IMG/VR virus record: IMGVR_UViG_3300027911_000066
Location: 1-23,744 of that record
Direction: 5' to 3' (one strand)
DNA from: a virus
DNA: 23,744 bases
The notes below the pieces were generated by a model, which was given only the letters and a program-made list of their open reading frames with translations, was not told where the DNA came from and did not search any database. Below are positions 144-20,512 of this stretch, in pieces. The position numbers and the translations under genes are program-made. Positions within the stretch are counted from its first letter, which is position 1. Every line of letters starts with the position of its first letter.

Positions 144-689
144 TCAATTCGTAGATGATATTCTATTACATAACTCCACGAAATATTTTTCATCAAAAGC
201 ATTCTTCATCCTGTTTACATCTTTGTGTAACCATTGTACATTTCCTTCAACATAACCCCTTGAAGAATCAATTCTATCCAATGATGCGGTTTGTTTACTG
301 CTAACTCCATCAAACTTCAATTCAATACCGCTCAATTTACATTTTCGTTCTTGTTGTAAGAACAGATTCCAAGCATACTCTATTGTGATAGAGAAGTCAA
401 TAGCACGGCGCCTCTTATTACCTTTCGAGCCTCTTTGGCAAGAACTCCAATATGAACCACTTATTTCACCAAATCCGGTCCAATTTCTGGGTATAGGTCT
501 TTTTATGCATCCACAATGGGTGGTATTTCCTTGCGTCAGGTGTGTTCCGAATATTATCTTTTCGTTACCACATACACATTCACACAACCATTTAGCGTGG
601 CCGTTTCGGGAAAAGGAAACCAATTTTCTGGCAATCAATTTACCGAAAACTAAATTAGTAAGGTCGTTGGGAATTTTTCCTCGGGGCAT
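144..689 (-). CDS. HNH-type mobile endonuclease-like protein with N-terminal zinc cluster
   Basis: A 181-residue protein. I chose the ATG at 687-689 because a perfect AGGAGG lies just upstream; an in-frame ATG nine codons earlier lacks such a site. The N-terminal half has a Cys cluster (C36, C38, C40, C59, C61) like the small zinc domains found in phage mobile endonucleases. The C-terminal half has CKLSG (117-121) and the block SLDRID-x3-GY-x2-GNV (about 136-151), typical of a degenerate HNH/treble-clef family common in T4-like phages. It probably nicks or cuts DNA to promote its own spread. It sits between the ribonucleotide reductase and gp44 genes, with its own late promoter and a hairpin over its ribosome site. 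A catalytically dead relic cannot be excluded. A shorter relative is at 6224-6577. Confidence 0.7.
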   Translation of the reverse strand: MPRGKIPNDLTNLVFGKLIARKLVSFSRNGHAKWLCECVCGNEKIIFGTHLTQGNTTHCGCIKRPIPRNWTGFGEISGSYWSSCQRGSKGNKRRRAIDFSITIEYAWNLFLQQERKCKLSGIELKFDGVSSKQTASLDRIDSSRGYVEGNVQWLHKDVNRMKNAFDEKYFVELCNRISSTN

Positions 690-692
690 AAT

Positions 693-736
693 GTCCTCCT
701 GTATTATACATTTCACATATATTTATACAGGAGGAC
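693..736 (-). promoter_or_regulatory. Hairpin sequestering the ribosome binding site of the HNH-like gene
   Basis: A perfect 12-bp inverted repeat (693-704 and 725-736) with a 20-nt loop. On the minus-strand RNA the downstream arm contains the whole AGGAGG ribosome site of the gene starting at 689, and the upstream arm is its exact complement. A transcript reading through from the ribonucleotide reductase gene would hide the site. The late promoter at 720-727 overlaps the upstream arm, so a transcript starting there would lack it. On the plus strand the same repeat is followed by five Ts, but nothing appears to be transcribed in that direction. Confidence 0.7.
720..727 (-). promoter_or_regulatory. 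T4-type late promoter (TATAAATA)
   Basis: An exact match to the T4 late -10 element TATAAATA on the minus strand, recognised in T4 by gp55-bound host polymerase. Initiation about six bases downstream would fall near 713-714, inside the hairpin loop, giving a leader of roughly 25 nt before the ATG at 689 that still contains AGGAGG. Confidence 0.7.
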
Positions 737-750
737 TTTTTCATTGTGAA

Positions 751-2634
751 CTAAATAAGTTCGCATACTCCGCCTTGGCAGGCGAGTGTCTGTGTTCCGG
801 TGGTATTATCTTGGTGTTCGTTCACATTGAACTTGCTCCAATCTACCTTAGGTGTTCTAGCCAACCACTTATCATATTCTTCCTTAGTGATAGGTTGATA
901 TGGTGCTTGTTGGTAGATACTGTCGGTGTAAGGAAGGAAAGAGATACCTCCTACCTCATCAAAGTGCTTATACACCCAGGCACCTACCTCCATCCATTCG
1001 GACTCCTTGACATAGACGGTGATAGAGACTGTGTGTTCAGCCCAATGCCGATAATACAACAAATAATGTTCCAATTGCTGTACTGCTGAGACTTCTGGGA
1101 CTGTGACGGCTTTCTCAGGCGACATATGTGGGAAATGGAATACCCAAGTTTTCTCAGGCTTCATCACATCATCCTCACAATACACTCCTTGTTCCTTGAG
1201 GAACTTTCCGATAGGATCACTCTTATCGGAACGAACGGTGCGGATGTAATAACGGGAATATCGTGGGTGAATTCCTGATGCTGAGTCCACTAACTGCGAT
1301 ACTGTTCCTGATGGCTTGACTGTGGTGATGGCGACCGAAGGATTGATGCCGATCTTCTTAGCCCAAATCTCATTCACTTCGATGGCATGTTCCTTCATCT
1401 TAGTGAGCCATTCTGCCGTCTTGTCGTTGGTCTTGTTCAATACAGGATGATCCATGATTCCTGTAAGTGATACACCGAGAAGTCTTTCTTCCTCTGCATT
1501 CCTCTTCCAGACATTTCGTAGATAACGGAAATCAGTGAGACTGGATTGGAATGTGCCCATGATCGTGGCAAGTTCAACCTTCTTGAGAAGGTCTTCCAAC
1601 TTATCGCTGGGACGAATAACAACTTCAGTGAGATTGCAGAATCCTGATGAACGAAGGAAAATCTCACAACACGGATTGGCACCCAAGAATTGTTCTTCGG
1701 CTTTCTTGGCGTCCCGGCGACCACCCTTCTTGATCTTCTTCAGGGCTCCTTGGCGATTGAAGATGCCTCGTTCGCCAGACTTGGAGTTGTATAGTGAAAT
1801 CCATTCTTCCATGAACAAACCAATTTCTGGCTTCTCAGTGTATGCTACCGAATTATTCGACAAGGCGCGCTGAGGATTGTCAATCCACCACTGACCCATC
1901 TTGGCATTGCGCATACGGTCATCAGAGAGATTCGAAAGACTGATCTGAGCAGACCTACGTACACCTCCGACCACGATGGCTGAAGCAATGTGATTCATCA
2001 GGTCGTGGCACTCGATGGACTGAAGGCGGCGTCCTGCTGCGTTCCTGAAGATTCGGACCGTATGCTTCATGAGGTCATCAAGAGGAGCCGGACCTGATGA
2101 TCGACCTCCGAAGGTCTTGAGTGGTGCGCCGGCAGGTCGCAGCGAGGATAAATCCCACTTAGGAATCTGTCCTGAATACAGCATTGCTACCAGTTGGCGA
2201 TAGGCGGCTGCCCAACCCACCTTAGAGTCAGCAACCTTGATGACGGTATCTGTATCATAGAAATCTTCGGATACCAAAGGCAACTTGGAAACAGCTTGAC
2301 GTTCCACGGAGAATCCTACTCCACAACCACACATCAAAAGATACATGGTTTCATCAAATGCGCGTGGATCATCCACGGCGATGTATGCGCAATTGTATCC
2401 TGCGGCATGGTCACGATCCAGGGCTTTGCCGGCGGTCATGAGGGCACGCATTGATGGCATGACCTCTAGTTCGTGTATATGTTCGTAAATCTCTTTCTTT
2501 GGAAACTGCTTGTCCTTCTCAAACCAAAAATCACAATATCTCGATACTGTTTCTTCCCATGTCTCTCTTCGATTTAGTTCTGGCAAAAAGCGGGCGTATC
2601 TACTCGCCGCTATGTAGCGTTGGTAGTCGTTCAT
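751..2634 (-). CDS. nrdJ: Class II (adenosylcobalamin-dependent) ribonucleoside-triphosphate reductase
   Basis: A 627-residue monomeric B12-dependent reductase that converts ribonucleotides to deoxyribonucleotides for phage DNA synthesis. Visible active-site elements are NCAYI (C82, one redox Cys), NPCCEI at 320-325 (N320, thiyl-radical C322, E324), FCNLTEV with the partner C333, and a C-terminal CQGGVC (C619, C624) shuttle pair. MCGCGVGFS (101-109) and VKPSGT (about 440) also fit the family. It is about 110 residues shorter than the Lactobacillus enzyme of roughly 740 residues. There is no separate small subunit gene nearby, consistent with class II. The start at 2634 is preceded by GGAG; the gene follows GMP reductase by 5 nt, so the two are probably co-transcribed. 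It needs host-supplied cobalamin. Confidence 0.88.
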   Translation of the reverse strand: MNDYQRYIAASRYARFLPELNRRETWEETVSRYCDFWFEKDKQFPKKEIYEHIHELEVMPSMRALMTAGKALDRDHAAGYNCAYIAVDDPRAFDETMYLLMCGCGVGFSVERQAVSKLPLVSEDFYDTDTVIKVADSKVGWAAAYRQLVAMLYSGQIPKWDLSSLRPAGAPLKTFGGRSSGPAPLDDLMKHTVRIFRNAAGRRLQSIECHDLMNHIASAIVVGGVRRSAQISLSNLSDDRMRNAKMGQWWIDNPQRALSNNSVAYTEKPEIGLFMEEWISLYNSKSGERGIFNRQGALKKIKKGGRRDAKKAEEQFLGANPCCEIFLRSSGFCNLTEVVIRPSDKLEDLLKKVELATIMGTFQSSLTDFRYLRNVWKRNAEEERLLGVSLTGIMDHPVLNKTNDKTAEWLTKMKEHAIEVNEIWAKKIGINPSVAITTVKPSGTVSQLVDSASGIHPRYSRYYIRTVRSDKSDPIGKFLKEQGVYCEDDVMKPEKTWVFHFPHMSPEKAVTVPEVSAVQQLEHYLLYYRHWAEHTVSITVYVKESEWMEVGAWVYKHFDEVGGISFLPYTDSIYQQAPYQPITKEEYDKWLARTPKVDWSKFNVNEHQDNTTGTQTLACQGGVCELI

Positions 2635-2639
2635 TGTTA

Positions 2640-3710
2640 TTATTCTCCATAGACTTTATTGTGTGTGTTGTTTACTTTGCAGAATACGGCGCACTTAGGA
2701 ATATCCTTCAATTTACGCGCACCAATATATGTACAGGTGCTACGAAGTCCGCCTAACATTTCTTCTGCTGTATTGGATACAGGACCCCTGTAGGAAACAA
2801 GAACCTCTTTTCCTTCGGATGCCCGATAATTTGCTTTACCGCCATAATGATCTTCCATGGCCTCGCGCGAGGACATACCGCGAAACTTCATGTGTGGCCA
2901 GTCCTGGTCGTGGATGATTTCTCCACCACACTCGTCATGTCCAGCGAACATGCTGCCGCACATGACGAAATCGGCTCCGGCACCGAATGCCTTGGCAATA
3001 TCTGCGATATGAACCACACCTCCGTCAGAGCATATATGACCGCCTTGGCTATGTGCAGCATTGGCACATTCGAGAACGGCTGAAAATTGGGGATATCCAA
3101 CCCCTGCGACTTTGCGTGTAGTACATACAGATCCAGAGCCTATGCCGACCTTGACGATATCGGCGCCGGCTCTGATTGCCTCGATGGTGACTTCAGGTGT
3201 CACCACGTTTCCTGCCATGATGATGGCATATTCACCTAGTTGTTCACGAACACGGCGAATACGCGAAAAGAATTGTTCTGTGTAACCATTTGCCACATCA
3301 ATGCATATAAGGATTGGTTTTTCTCCAAACCAAGAACCGAAATTCATTGCACTGAACTTCACAAAATCGTCATCAGAAATTCCCATGGAATAAAAAGCAA
3401 AACCACTCCTGGCTTCACCAGAACACTCATCAGAATAGTATTCTTGGAGGGATTTGACAGTGTGAAATTTGTGTAACGCCGTAAGCATTTTGAACTTTGA
3501 TAACGTACTCGCCATCTGTAGGGTGCCTACAGTGTCCATGTTTGCGGCGATGATTGGTACTGCGGTTATCTGGTGCTTACTGTGTTTGAATCTAAACGTT
3601 CTTTCTAGCACAACACCTTGTCTACTTCCGTTACTAGCCCAAGGTGTTCTTTGAGGGACAAACAATACATCAGAAAAATCCAATTTCGTATCATTGACAA
3701 TCGTTGTCAT
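2640..3710 (-). CDS. guaC: GMP reductase (GuaC type)
   Basis: A 356-residue enzyme of the IMP dehydrogenase/GMP reductase (β/α)8-barrel family. It aligns along its length with E. coli GuaC (347 residues) as I recall that sequence: FKDVL-like start, VPIIAANMDTVGT (51-63), CIDVANGY (136-143), AGADIVKVGIGSGSVCTTR (181-199, catalytic C196), SDGG (228-231), FVMCGSM-x-AGH, GMSS and a C-terminal GGLRS-x-CTY-x-GA. The short length and absence of inserted CBS domains favour GMP reductase over IMP dehydrogenase. The reaction is NADPH-dependent deamination of GMP to IMP, which would allow guanine nucleotides to be recycled towards adenine nucleotides. Start supported by GGAG upstream. It sits between dUTPase and RNR in the DNA-precursor module. 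This is not a standard T4 gene and was probably acquired from a bacterium. Confidence 0.87.
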   Translation of the reverse strand: MTTIVNDTKLDFSDVLFVPQRTPWASNGSRQGVVLERTFRFKHSKHQITAVPIIAANMDTVGTLQMASTLSKFKMLTALHKFHTVKSLQEYYSDECSGEARSGFAFYSMGISDDDFVKFSAMNFGSWFGEKPILICIDVANGYTEQFFSRIRRVREQLGEYAIIMAGNVVTPEVTIEAIRAGADIVKVGIGSGSVCTTRKVAGVGYPQFSAVLECANAAHSQGGHICSDGGVVHIADIAKAFGAGADFVMCGSMFAGHDECGGEIIHDQDWPHMKFRGMSSREAMEDHYGGKANYRASEGKEVLVSYRGPVSNTAEEMLGGLRSTCTYIGARKLKDIPKCAVFCKVNNTHNKVYGE

Positions 3711-4244: not shown

Positions 4245-4913
4245 TCAAACTTTGTTGCCAATCTTTTCGGTTGTAATCCAATATTCAACGGCAACATTCT
4301 TGTTCTTGAAGTGAGAAATTCCATTCGGAGAAATCTCAACATCATACGAACCGGGAATCATTTTCAGATTGTCGGTCTTGAACACAAAGCGGAAGGTCTT
4401 GTCTGTTTCACCAACGTTGATACTACCCTTAGTAGCCGAGTCATTGGCACTGTCATAGGTAACTAGCAATAGTTTACCATCAACACCTTCGACGGCGACG
4501 TTAGGCGAAGTCAACACGTTGGCTTGCTTCATAAGACTATTTAGTTTTGCTTCACTCAAAACAAACGAAATATGAACGGAAGGAAAATTTATATTTTTTT
4601 CTGGAGGCGTAACAATCATCGTCCTCTCGGTGCAACGATAATCGATCCTGCTCTCGCCGTCTTGGGAGGTGATGCGAACGTTCACTCCGTCGAATGAGAG
4701 TTCTGGATCCTTGTTCAGTGAAAGTACAGACAAGAATTCGTTCAAATCATAAATACCAAAATCTGTAGGAAAAGATTCGGTAACGGTGGCCTGGGCCAAC
4801 ACGGTCTTGTTCTGAGAGATTGTGGACAACTTGCTTCCTTCACGGAAGAAAAGTCCAGAATTGATCGAAGAAAAGTTCTTCAATACGTTGAGTGTTTCAC
4901 TTGAAAGTTTCAT
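4245..4913 (-). CDS. gp45: DNA polymerase sliding clamp gp45
   Basis: A 222-residue processivity factor that forms a trimeric ring tethering the phage DNA polymerase; in T4 it also activates late transcription together with gp55 and gp33. The N-terminus (MKLSSETLNVLKNFSSINSG) closely follows the T4 gp45 beginning, and IYDLNEFLSVLSL matches the T4 segment IYDLNGFLGILSL; NLKMIPGSY matches the T4 NMKMQPGNY block. The ATG at 4911-4913 is preferred over one four codons upstream because GGAGAA is at the right spacing and homologues begin with MKLS. It begins 2 nt after the stop of the dNMP kinase gene. It is separated from the clamp loader gene by four genes. Confidence 0.92.
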   Translation of the reverse strand: MKLSSETLNVLKNFSSINSGLFFREGSKLSTISQNKTVLAQATVTESFPTDFGIYDLNEFLSVLSLNKDPELSFDGVNVRITSQDGESRIDYRCTERTMIVTPPEKNINFPSVHISFVLSEAKLNSLMKQANVLTSPNVAVEGVDGKLLLVTYDSANDSATKGSINVGETDKTFRFVFKTDNLKMIPGSYDVEISPNGISHFKNKNVAVEYWITTEKIGNKV

Positions 4914-4914
4914 G

Positions 4915-5565
4915 CTATTCTCCATTCACAAAAAGTTGCTCAATTATATCTGATCCATATCTGTGTGTCAATACTTGGGCAAGATGTTTTTTCAGATCAT
5001 CTACGGAACCATCATTGACAATGGTATAATCGATTTGACCGCCAATCCACTTCCATTCAGATTCATGTATACCATACATCTTCATTTCCTGAAGTGCCTT
5101 CACATCGCCGTTATTGGCATCCTTGGCAGTGTGATACCAGTCGGGTAGTTCACCGCGTTGAATGTGAATCAAGACTCCGGAATTACGACGGATGAAATCC
5201 ATTTCGTTTTGAAAACGAACATCGGTGATTACGGTGTTTCCTGTAATACGGCGTTGCAACGATTCAATCCAAATGTCATTATGAAACACATTGCGACCTG
5301 CTTCAGTTCCGAGTTTCTGCAAGGCTTCTCTAGGTGTAAATGGTCGACCCATAACCTTGGACCAGAATTCGTCTGGTTGTTCTCGCCATTCTCTGGATTC
5401 CTTAGTATCACCTTCCAACATATTTCGATCCCAACCAAAGATAACCGAAGCGGCGTCCTTGAGAGGACCTGCGAAACTCTGTTTGGTGAATCCGATTTTG
5501 GTGAGCATATCACCAGCGGTTCCTTTACCTGAACCGATGAATCCTACAAGTCCTACAAACATCAT
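4915..5565 (-). CDS. gp1: Deoxynucleoside monophosphate kinase (T4 gp1 type)
   Basis: A 216-residue P-loop kinase that phosphorylates dNMPs to dNDPs; the T4 gp1 enzyme handles dTMP, dGMP and hydroxymethyl-dCMP. Walker A is GFIGSGKGT (8-16). A DVRFQNEMDFI segment and the RPFTPREALQKLGTE-x-GR region are typical of this phage family. The C-terminal part (DYTIVNDGSVDDLKKHL) is the usual lid and end of adenylate-kinase-like dNMP kinases. GAGGAG sits upstream of the first of two consecutive ATGs, so I start at 5565. The gene abuts the methyltransferase gene upstream and the sliding clamp gene downstream. Which dNMPs it accepts cannot be told from sequence. Confidence 0.88.
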   Translation of the reverse strand: MMFVGLVGFIGSGKGTAGDMLTKIGFTKQSFAGPLKDAASVIFGWDRNMLEGDTKESREWREQPDEFWSKVMGRPFTPREALQKLGTEAGRNVFHNDIWIESLQRRITGNTVITDVRFQNEMDFIRRNSGVLIHIQRGELPDWYHTAKDANNGDVKALQEMKMYGIHESEWKWIGGQIDYTIVNDGSVDDLKKHLAQVLTHRYGSDIIEQLFVNGE

Positions 5566-6582: not shown

Positions 6583-7380
6583 CTACATTTCTCCAACGTG
6601 ATTAGCGATAGCCGGCATATCTCCCACAAAATGGTAAGTTCCAATGTGCGTGGTCCTCATCCATGGGCAAAGGTAAATCTTTCCACCAATTCGCCGCCAC
6701 CATTGACAGAACATGTAGTCCTCAGACAGATATCGTTCCGACTGCTTATCGATAACGGTGTCAAAGTATGCGTGGATATATCTAGAGCCGTCAAAGTTGG
6801 CTTGCCCAACGTGATCTGGACGATACTTCAGTTCAGGATACGCTTCAGCAAACTTGCCGAAAACTTCCCTCTTGACCATCATGAAGCCGGTGCCAATTTC
6901 AAGGACTTCCAAAGGCTCGGTCACGGTGAATTGCTGTGTTCCCTTTACAGGATTGAACACGAAATCTCCGGTGAGTTTGGACAATTCTTCTTCAGTGACG
7001 GCTGGATTCTTTGTCATTGCCTTCTTGATGTTTCTCCACTTGATGGCTTTCTTGGGATAGGGACCACCAATAACGTCCTTATCGAGTGCAAGTAGGGCAA
7101 TAACGTCCTTCGGATCGAAGTTCACGTCCGAGTCGATGAAGAGTAGATGAGTATAATCGCTGCGATTCAGGAACTCATCCACTAGGTAATTTCTGGCTCT
7201 CGTAATGAGAGATTCGTTGAACAGGAAGGAAAACTTGATTTGAATTCCATACTGCATACACATGCCTTGCAAGTCAAGGCAGGCCTTCATGTAAAGACCG
7301 TGGTTTTGTCCACCATACATCGGAGTGGCCACGAACAATCTTTTCTTCTTCAATTCATCTACTTTGATACTGATTTCCAT
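6583..7380 (-). CDS. GT-A-type glycosyltransferase
   Basis: A 265-residue protein. I start at the ATG at 7378-7380, which has GGGAG upstream, rather than an ATG seven codons earlier. The N-terminal half has the layout of a GT-A nucleotide-sugar-binding domain: LFVATPMYGG (15-24), SLITRARNYLVDEF (57-70) and HLLFIDSDVNF (78-88), where D83-S-D85 is the metal-binding DXD-like motif. It probably transfers a sugar from a nucleotide-sugar; the acceptor (modified DNA base, virion protein or cell surface) cannot be seen. The start overlaps the end of the HNH endonuclease gene by 26 nt, consistent with that gene being a late insertion. A methyltransferase gene lies downstream beyond a second inserted endonuclease-like gene. 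Confidence 0.72.
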   Translation of the reverse strand: MEISIKVDELKKKRLFVATPMYGGQNHGLYMKACLDLQGMCMQYGIQIKFSFLFNESLITRARNYLVDEFLNRSDYTHLLFIDSDVNFDPKDVIALLALDKDVIGGPYPKKAIKWRNIKKAMTKNPAVTEEELSKLTGDFVFNPVKGTQQFTVTEPLEVLEIGTGFMMVKREVFGKFAEAYPELKYRPDHVGQANFDGSRYIHAYFDTVIDKQSERYLSEDYMFCQWWRRIGGKIYLCPWMRTTHIGTYHFVGDMPAIANHVGEM

Positions 7381-7816
7381 GTGTCTCTCCCTTAGGTACA
7401 TCTACTATGCCGGCATGAATTTTTCTATGACAATTTGAACACACAACCACACATCTATCTAATTCACCAATCAAACGATCTATTTTGAAGTTCCATTTTA
7501 TCAACTGAGATATCTCATATTCTTTTTTAGAAGGATCTGTGTGATGAAAATCTAACGTACATATGGTTTTTTCTCCGCACAAACAACAACCTTGTTCCTT
7601 CTTTTTATTCATGAAAGATTTTCGCTTATAATATCTTTCTTTCCTTCTTTGCACAAAGGATTTTTTATATGTTTCGGTTTTCATTCTCTTTTGTGTGTCT
7701 GCGACACAACATTGCTTACACATATAATTCAAACCATCAGTATACCTATGGTTCTTATAAAACGAATCGGAAGTTTTATTTTCCTTACACCTAGTACATA
7801 TCTTATATGTTGACAT
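7355..7816 (-). CDS. HNH endonuclease (putative mobile/homing)
   Basis: About 153 residues. The N-terminus has a zinc-ribbon (CTRC...CKQC) and the C-terminal half carries a classic HNH site: CLCG, then LDFHHTDP with the catalytic His pair, then CSNCHRKIHAG with the Asn and second Zn/His set. Such stand-alone HNH enzymes in T4-like phages usually behave as homing endonucleases. The DNA is visibly more AT-rich than its neighbours. I take the ATG at 7814-7816, but there is no ribosome site: the bases upstream are the T-tract of a terminator. An in-frame ATG at 7853-7855 lies upstream of that terminator stem. The 3' end overlaps the glycosyltransferase start. Confidence 0.75.
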   Translation of the reverse strand: MSTYKICTRCKENKTSDSFYKNHRYTDGLNYMCKQCCVADTQKRMKTETYKKSFVQRRKERYYKRKSFMNKKKEQGCCLCGEKTICTLDFHHTDPSKKEYEISQLIKWNFKIDRLIGELDRCVVVCSNCHRKIHAGIVDVPKGETHGNQYQSR

Positions 7817-7820
7817 ATCG

Positions 7821-7851
7821 AAAAAAAAGCCAGGACGGATCCTGGCTTTTT
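7821..7851 (-). terminator. Rho-independent terminator after the winged-helix gene
   Basis: A perfect 7-bp GC-containing stem (7829-7835 with 7840-7846), CGGA on the plus strand as the loop, followed on the minus strand by eight Ts. The plus strand also ends in five Ts, so it could work in both directions. It lies 18 nt downstream of the winged-helix gene and directly before the HNH endonuclease start. Confidence 0.88.
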
Positions 7852-7869
7852 CCATCTTGCCGATAACGA

Positions 7870-13562: not shown

Positions 13563-14111
13563 TCACTCATCAAGATAATTTTCAATACCTTTTTCCTTCT
13601 TTACCTTATCTTTCTTTTTCCTCTTGCTTTCCTCGAAATTCTCAATGAATTCAGAGATATTGTCATATAGTTCCACAGGAGGACGGTGAGCATCGTCCAT
13701 TTCCAGAAATTCGTGTTCGTCAAGTATACCAGTTTGTTGGGTGGCTTTGTATTTCACGTATAACTGTTTCTTCTCTTTTTGTATTCTGCGGAGGAAGGCG
13801 AAGTAGATGATCTGGGTGAAATAGGCGAAGGCGTTGTTGGACTTTTCAGGATCGAAATTGTCGAAATACATGAGACAGTTTTCGATAGCATCACCGATCA
13901 TATCCTCACGGCAGGGGTAATTGATGAAGTTGGGTTTGTGGGATAGTCCCTCCGCAATCTTCATGAAGCATTCTCCTATGTAGTTCGGAATAGGAGGCTT
14001 CTCCAATTTCTTCCTCTTGGCGTCCTTACATGCCTTCTTATAGGCAATCAGACACTCTACGAATGCTGCATTGTTGACGTATTCCTTCTTTTTCTTCGGT
14101 GCGGTAGCCAT
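13563..14111 (-). CDS. gp55: RNA polymerase sigma factor for late transcription gp55
   Basis: A 182-residue minimal sigma factor that directs host RNA polymerase to TATAAATA late promoters. The order of blocks matches T4 gp55: YVNNAAFVECLIAYK at the start (T4 YVNNKELLQAIIDWK), IAEGLSHKPNFINYPCREDMIGDAIENCLMYFDNFDPEKSNNAFAYFTQI (T4 [49 protein letters not shown]) and FLRRIQKEKKQLYVKYK, the region 2-like core. The basic C-terminal end (KRKKKDKVKKEKGIENYLDE) fits the part that contacts the sliding clamp in T4. GAGGAA precedes the ATG. Its product explains the late promoters found upstream of the head genes and two endonuclease genes. Confidence 0.93.
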   Translation of the reverse strand: MATAPKKKKEYVNNAAFVECLIAYKKACKDAKRKKLEKPPIPNYIGECFMKIAEGLSHKPNFINYPCREDMIGDAIENCLMYFDNFDPEKSNNAFAYFTQIIYFAFLRRIQKEKKQLYVKYKATQQTGILDEHEFLEMDDAHRPPVELYDNISEFIENFEESKRKKKDKVKKEKGIENYLDE

Positions 14112-17209: not shown

Positions 17210-17800
17210 TTAGGAGACCTTTGTGGCTCGCCAGCCTTTGTGTTTGCCTCTTGACAGATTGCCTTGGTCAAGACTGTGTTCCTTACAAAAGGCAAGTAGG
17301 TTTGTGATTGTCATAACTTGACCTATGGGACTGATAATGGTCCAAGTAGCAGAGTTGAACTTAGACACCGCATCCTTTTGTGATTGAGGTTGTTTGAAGC
17401 CTATACGAGACTGACGGAGTTTCTCATAGTCATAACGACCTTCTTTATGTCTTTGTATAGCCTTCTGTCGGTTGATTTCGTTGCTTTCTTCTTTATGTTT
17501 GTATCCAATGGGCCACCCGCCACCATCCAATCCGTTTTCTTCTCTTAGATTAGCCCATTCCGAAGAACTAACAATGTTGTTATCTTGAGAAAACTTTGAA
17601 GCATAATCGATTAGTTCTTTTTCGTCGGTGAATAGTTGATGCCATAGGGTTACTACATGTTCAACTCCATGCTTCTTGATGTGACTAACCCAGTGTTTTC
17701 CGGAACCAAGATATGATACTGGGTCTGACTTGGTGGTCTTACCAAAGTATTTGAGTTTGGTAACTGAGTGTTGTTTGATATAGAGGTAGGTGGGTTTCAT
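17210..17800 (-). CDS. GIY-YIG-type mobile endonuclease
   Basis: A 196-residue protein. Residues 4-45 carry a variant GIY-YIG module: YLYIK (5-9) for the GIY segment, KYFGKTT (17-23) for YIG, then YLGSGKHWVSHIKKHG, the pattern seen in a family of T4-like phage endonuclease-like genes. The C-terminus (ISPIGQVMTITNLLAFCKEHSLDQGNLSRGKHKGWRATKVS) looks like a NUMOD/helical DNA-binding element of homing endonucleases. It lies between gp23 and the gp3-like gene, has its own late promoter (17829-17836), and follows the gp23 terminator. I use the ATG at 17798-17800; its ribosome site is weak. TTG codons at 17816-17821 are alternatives. Activity is not certain. Confidence 0.72.
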   Translation of the reverse strand: MKPTYLYIKQHSVTKLKYFGKTTKSDPVSYLGSGKHWVSHIKKHGVEHVVTLWHQLFTDEKELIDYASKFSQDNNIVSSSEWANLREENGLDGGGWPIGYKHKEESNEINRQKAIQRHKEGRYDYEKLRQSRIGFKQPQSQKDAVSKFNSATWTIISPIGQVMTITNLLAFCKEHSLDQGNLSRGKHKGWRATKVS

Positions 17801-17828
17801 AGTAATCCGATGGGTCAACAATATAATG

Positions 17829-17836
17829 TATTTATA
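17829..17836 (-). promoter_or_regulatory. T4-type late promoter before the GIY-YIG gene
   Basis: Exact TATAAATA on the minus strand, two bases after the T-tract of the gp23 terminator. Initiation near 17823 gives a leader of about 23 nt before the ATG at 17800. It would allow the endonuclease and the gp3-like gene beyond it to be transcribed late despite the terminator. Confidence 0.75.
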
Positions 17837-19296: not shown

Positions 19297-19304
19297 TATT
19301 TATA
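19297..19304 (-). promoter_or_regulatory. T4-type late promoter before gp23
   Basis: Exact TATAAATA on the minus strand, four bases after the scaffold stop codon. The predicted start near 19291 gives a leader of about 33 nt with AGGAGA before the capsid ATG. Confidence 0.85.
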
Positions 19305-20504: not shown

Positions 20505-20512
20505 TATTTATA
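20505..20512 (-). promoter_or_regulatory. T4-type late promoter before gp22
   Basis: Exact TATAAATA on the minus strand, one base after the gp21 stop codon. Predicted initiation near 20499 gives a leader of roughly 24 nt containing AAGGAGAG. Confidence 0.85.

Follow-up and report, generated by a model that had tools for sequence, protein, structure and literature searches.

The window analysed here, a stretch of 23,744 nucleotides, is a 23.7-kb fragment from an uncultured virus. On its minus strand, a gene for an HNH-family endonuclease starts 61 nt beyond the stop codon of a ribonucleotide reductase (RNR) gene. The two genes and the leader between them contain the following features.

144-689, minus strand: free-standing HNH-family endonuclease gene, 181 aa (P0001), from PHROG matches and predicted fold
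687-689, minus strand: ATG start codon, with AGGAGG 5 nt upstream and the same N-terminus as in relatives
693-704, minus strand: proximal stem arm (3' in the RNA), holding the ribosome-binding site and perfectly complementary to 725-736
695-700, minus strand: Shine-Dalgarno (SD) sequence AGGAGG, predicted to be fully paired in read-through RNA
705-724, minus strand: loop, from the fold
712-717, minus strand: TGTGAA, right half-site of a dyad (TYRCA..TGYRA in relatives' leaders), over the predicted start; putative operator
713-714, minus strand: predicted late start site, in the loop, placed by T4 late-promoter spacing
720-727, minus strand: TATAAATA late-promoter box of the HNH gene, exact match
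725-736, minus strand: distal stem arm (5' in the RNA), missing from RNA begun at the predicted late promoter
745-750, minus strand: TTCACA, left half-site of the same promoter-flanking dyad
751-2634, minus strand: RNR gene with intact redox tail ..ACQGGVCELI (phrog_367, E 2e-180)

The function of P0001 is assigned by profiles and by a predicted fold, which together point to an HNH (beta-beta-alpha metal) nuclease. Searches against PHROG returned endonuclease/HNH matches (E 1e-21 and 5e-19), and there was no match in Pfam. The AlphaFold2 model (pLDDT 88.9) contains a beta-beta-alpha element at residues 135-164, and its best Foldseek matches in the PDB are HNH nucleases, with PacI at probability 1.00 and E 0.014; the further matches, to Gme HNH and Cas9 HNH, have E-values of only 0.01-0.1. 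A sequence search of the PDB found no relatives, and a near-identity search of annotated phages found no match. The gene appears to be free-standing, in that the RNR gene ends intact ahead of it and an Rfam scan of the window matched no family, group I introns included. A clamp-loader-like frame (MSDNEQLLWVEKYRP) comes after the HNH gene on the minus strand.

The hairpin and the predicted late promoter

The inverted repeat at 693-704/725-736 is exact over 12 bp, encloses a loop of 20 nt, and is far beyond chance. Perfect repeats of at least 12 bp with a loop of at most 30 nt occur twice in the window, against a mean of 0.08 in dinucleotide shuffles, and the second of them, at 7824-7835/7840-7851, lies ahead of another HNH gene and is a terminator of the usual kind. 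The minus-strand RNA of the hairpin folds at -26.3 kcal/mol (z -5.0), a stability reached by 0 of 200 shuffles. As the preliminary description had stated, the entire AGGAGG lies within the stem. The predicted fold gives it an unpaired probability of 0.0 in read-through RNA, and the predicted cost of opening it falls from 16.8 kcal/mol in that RNA to 1.3 in RNA that starts at 714. The ribosome-binding site is thus predicted to lie in a stable stem of the read-through RNA, as in T4-type gating.

Could the stem instead be mainly an RNA end structure, which either terminates antisense RNA from the plus strand or stabilises the 3' end of the RNR mRNA, with its overlap of the ribosome-binding site incidental? 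On the plus strand the same repeat is followed by TTTTTC, and 660-760 folds at -27.1 kcal/mol, so that the element also resembles a terminator for antisense RNA. However, the plus strand has no gene that such a structure would serve. On the coding strand, which is also that of the RNR gene, the stem is not followed by a U-run, and a terminator role there was rejected. The relatives, discussed below, also bear on this explanation.

The distal arm is overlapped by 3 nt by an exact TATAAATA on the minus strand, again as previously described. This box occurs 4 times in the window against 0.62 expected, a count reached in none of 100 shuffles. All four copies are on the minus strand, in front of gp22, gp23, the HNH gene and a GIY-YIG-like gene. 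With the HNH gene excluded, the box is found in 3 of 28 window leaders against 0.17 expected (P 7e-4). The other copies and the genes that bear on late transcription are as follows.

4245-4925, minus strand: gp45-type sliding clamp gene (PF09116; phrog_223, E 2e-71)
13563-14111, minus strand: gp55-type late sigma factor gene (phrog_234, E 3e-61)
17829-17836, minus strand: TATAAATA before the GIY-YIG-like gene, with a terminator just upstream and no SD hairpin
19297-19304, minus strand: TATAAATA before the gp23 major head protein gene (sequence, profile match)
20505-20512, minus strand: TATAAATA before the gp22 scaffold gene (sequence, profile match)

The phage therefore encodes its own gp55-type late sigma factor, although the gene is not next to the HNH gene, as had been proposed, but sits about 13 kb off. 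It also encodes a gp45-type clamp; the gp45 clamp is required for late transcription in T4. The late RNA presumably starts near 713-714, within the loop, if the T4 late-promoter spacing applies, and such an RNA would omit the distal arm.

Early or middle expression of the RNR gene is assumed from T4. In read-through RNA from that gene, the 12-bp stem would cover the whole ribosome-binding site and the HNH gene would not be translated. When gp55 directs transcription from TATAAATA, the RNA would begin at about 714 in the loop, without the distal arm, and would be translated. This two-layer mechanism is very likely, and it is of a known kind. The interpretation that we favour, with a probability of roughly 0.8, is that a free-standing HNH homing gene took up a place downstream of RNR in a T4-like phage and brought its own timing device with it. 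It builds on features that the sequence shows directly, namely the stem and the box, genes for gp55 and, next door, for RNR, and an architecture that recurs in relatives; the late start, the silence of the read-through RNA and the homing of the nuclease to the RNR 3' end are its predicted elements.

The GIY-YIG-like gene at 17210-17836 lies behind gp23 and has its own TATAAATA and a strong terminator ahead of it, with no SD hairpin; here the terminator is another route of insulation from read-through.

Parallels in T4-like phages

The combination of a hairpin with a late promoter is known from T4 genes e, soc and 49 and from I-TevI, and from the free-standing genes segB of T4 and mobE of phage Aeh1 (PMC2988022; PMC3014915). 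The last of these is a free-standing HNH gene inside nrdA, with a late promoter and a hairpin over its ribosome site (PMC2988022; PMC3014915), and it thus shares with the window gene its enzyme family, its tie to an RNR gene and both regulatory elements. The two differ in that Aeh1 mobE splits nrdA, whereas the window gene comes after an intact RNR gene of another type. Given segB and Aeh1 mobE, the contrast drawn earlier with the intron-borne I-TevI overstated the novelty of this logic at a free-standing gene.

In the I-TevI leader, as proposed here, early/middle RNA carries a stem over the ribosome-binding site and RNA from the late promoter lacks it, but I-TevI is a GIY-YIG enzyme in a group I intron, and the window gene is of the HNH type in a window with no Rfam intron. 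The leaders of T4 e (lysozyme) and soc share the sequestering stem, although these are ordinary phage genes (lysis and capsid decoration) and not mobile elements. T4 mobE, like the window gene, lies directly behind an RNR gene (nrdA), but it overlaps nrdA, which suggests coupling (PMC2988022); among the relatives described below, 16 RNR-linked loci overlap or leave a short gap, nearly all of them without a hairpin. Neither BLASTP nor HHalign detected similarity between P0001 and the MobE protein of T4, so that by these tests the window gene is a parallel case rather than a MobE orthologue.

Spread of the HNH gene beside RNR genes

Viral contigs were scanned four times with HNH queries, which yielded 240 usable loci, or 108 after proteins more than 85% identical were dropped. 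Within this non-redundant set, 76 adjoin the 3' end of an RNR gene and 32 are not RNR-linked. Identity between the RNR of the window and those of two relatives is only 31-33%, against 51-54% for the HNH proteins of the same loci. The 80 RNRs nearest to that of the window all lack the HNH gene. Diverse RNRs, more similar HNH proteins and unoccupied nearest RNRs together argue that the HNH gene moves. Among annotated phages, four matches had their neighbourhoods inspected and none was RNR-linked; in GTDB genomes no HNH relative was confirmed; and a phrog_138 search of the records matched nothing anywhere and is hence uninformative.

How might such a gene lodge in the end of an essential gene and leave it functional? 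Copies of the RNR redox tail (..GGACEI and similar) form the end of the HNH protein at 21 of the 76 RNR-linked loci (L018, L021, L083, L089, L095 and 16 more) and at 0 of the 32 others. At L095 the HNH gene lies between exact direct repeats of 27 nt from the tail. At L080 and L083 the HNH proteins end in CPI and their RNRs in CPV and CPI, respectively, and two HNH proteins that are not RNR-linked end in a copy of the C-terminus encoded by the gene upstream of them (YRRFY at L348 and QVLKK at L355). These copies suggest that the HNH gene inserted within the last codons of RNR while a new tail was provided upstream, a way into the gene's end that would spare its function. Several loci have atypical RNR tails (CSIE at L021, CDLK at L089), which could shield the RNR from the enzyme. 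No convincing leftover of an RNR tail was found past the HNH stop codon in the window. The pattern as a whole (76/108, 0/80 and 21/76) is one of sporadic insertion beside a conserved target gene, as in homing.

The RNR gene itself is in two pieces several hundred bases apart in the records of L025 (G008; 884-2338 and 2731-3291) and L037 (G022; 62039-63061 and 63896-64774), possibly owing to an intron or a further insertion. The L080 RNR frame, which starts at about 419, opens with an intein-like C-terminal stretch (..DDTHNFFANGICVH).

Leaders of the relatives

Where the RNR and HNH genes are separated by a gap of 40-125 nt (n=55), the leaders have a median hairpin z of -4.4, and 37 of the 55 fall below -3. 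These z-scores come from an 81-nt window that takes in the RNR terminator at some loci. The median is -0.6 at the 16 overlapping or short-gap RNR-linked loci (1/16 below -3), -0.7 in the leaders of the 32 HNH genes not linked to RNR (1/32), and -0.9 in 111 other leaders used as controls (23/111, or 21%, so that hairpins are commoner there than expected). The 55 gap leaders differ from the 111 controls with a Mann-Whitney P of 2e-11; P-values here are optimistic, since relatives below 85% identity are still kin. For the relatives, start codons were assigned by a rule that gives some weight to SD sites, and the same rule was applied to the comparison sets of 16 and 32. Among the leaders of RNR-linked loci with a gap, roughly one in four shows no clear hairpin (z above -2).

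In the relatives the start region stays covered by a stem whose letters differ between loci. Because a MAFFT alignment of the leaders misplaced the stems, we compared arm-swap energies instead. In five leaders of similar layout, the pairing energy is -20 to -25 kcal/mol for a leader's own arms and -8 to -19 for swapped ones, and own arms outpair every swapped arm in 21 of 55 leaders against 10 of 111 controls. The compensatory change in the two arms that had been suggested as a check is thus found. Behind RNR genes without an HNH gene, the 3' ends have neither the leader hairpin (median z -0.8) nor the dyad, and this, with the sporadic occurrence of the HNH gene, supports the earlier idea of a mobile regulatory cassette.

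These results also make the RNA end structure an improbable account of the stem, since HNH-less RNRs do without it, relatives hold it at the start region, and several of them have no T-run on the opposite strand. Slightly less probable still is that the stem is a site at which RNase III or E cuts the HNH part off the RNR mRNA. RNase E sites, or sites like them, are indeed where the transcripts of T4 segB, segG and Aeh1 mobE are processed (PMC2988022), but among the relatives the stem changes in length and position and still covers the start region.

What happens to the promoter? A search of viral contigs for the exact hairpin-plus-TATAAATA pattern gave 4 matches, none of which proved on inspection to be an HNH gene, and TATAAATA is missing from most relatives. 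Other promoter-like motifs lie between the arms instead, and they differ by locus: TATAAATA, GTATAATA, TAnnTTTG and TATTTA among them. Such a motif is present in 37 of 42 hairpin leaders against 12 of 29 control hairpins, a comparison that is partly circular because the motif list came from these same leaders. A less circular comparison is with the other genes of the same record, before which several motifs are enriched: TATAAATA in that of L087 (6 against 0.84 expected), GTATAATA in L008 (7 against 1.2), TAnnTTTG in L021 (9 against 3.1), ACTAYTTA in L052 (4 against 0.44) and TATTTA in L034 (11 against 1.7). With motif wording picked record by record, about half of 18 records show enrichment at P < 0.05, and the rest are short or null. 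A gp55 homologue is present in the L087 record, which is of the TATAAATA type, and was found in none of 16 others tested, several of them fragments. In the HNH tree, whose deep branches are weak, TATAAATA leaders fall in three places and promoter labels need 27 changes; the TATAAATA-type leaders may have a single origin.

The two-layer control first proposed thus gains from the sequence, from folding and above all from the hairpins that relatives keep with changed letters, whereas its expectation that TATAAATA would be retained mostly fails. By sequence comparison of uncultured contigs, it is the leader architecture that recurs across the mobile RNR-targeting HNH family, with promoter types changing. 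What is new here is this recurrence, with unrelated stems and varied promoters, and it points to delayed expression of homing nucleases behind a hairpin gate as a solution that recurs across a large family of uncultured origin, not one peculiar to T4. It also supplies dozens of natural replicates with which to test why a selfish nuclease has to be silent early when it sits in an essential operon for nucleotide synthesis.

A second element of the leaders is the dyad TTCACA..TGTGAA, in general form TYRCA..TGYRA, which lies around the hairpin or makes it up. It is found in 37 of 55 RNR-linked leaders, 1 of 32 other HNH leaders and 2 of 111 controls. I-TevI represses its own promoter by binding an overlapping operator similar to its homing site (PMC2988022). 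By that analogy the dyad is a reasonable candidate operator, and its half-site TGTGAAAT reads as the RNR tail codons C-E-I. Perhaps, then, the conserved element is a DNA operator for self-repression by the HNH protein, and the RNA pairing is a by-product of its symmetry. We consider this unlikely as a replacement for the gating hairpin, although less so than the end-structure and processing explanations. The letters of the SD stem in the window differ from those of the dyad, so the stem needs an explanation of its own, and the half-site spelling, compared by eye with the tail captured at the same locus, agrees in 3 cases and disagrees in 3, which leaves the operator reading unproven. The dyad could also be a third layer added to the hairpin.

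More broadly, and tentatively, the RNR-targeting HNH family may move among unrelated phages as a unit, made up of the nuclease, a replacement redox tail, a hairpin leader enclosing a promoter rewritten in the recipient's vocabulary, and half-sites like the homing target that serve as operator. If so, it would be a portable timing module able to work with T4-late, -10-like and Bacteroidota-type promoters.

Two further genes of the window may be mentioned. At 7355-7855 there is another HNH gene, with a likely ATG at 7816 and the perfect 12-bp-stem terminator (7824-7851) ahead of it, and the product of 8254-9519 matches the DruA family (PF14236, E 6e-19), here in a T4-like phage.
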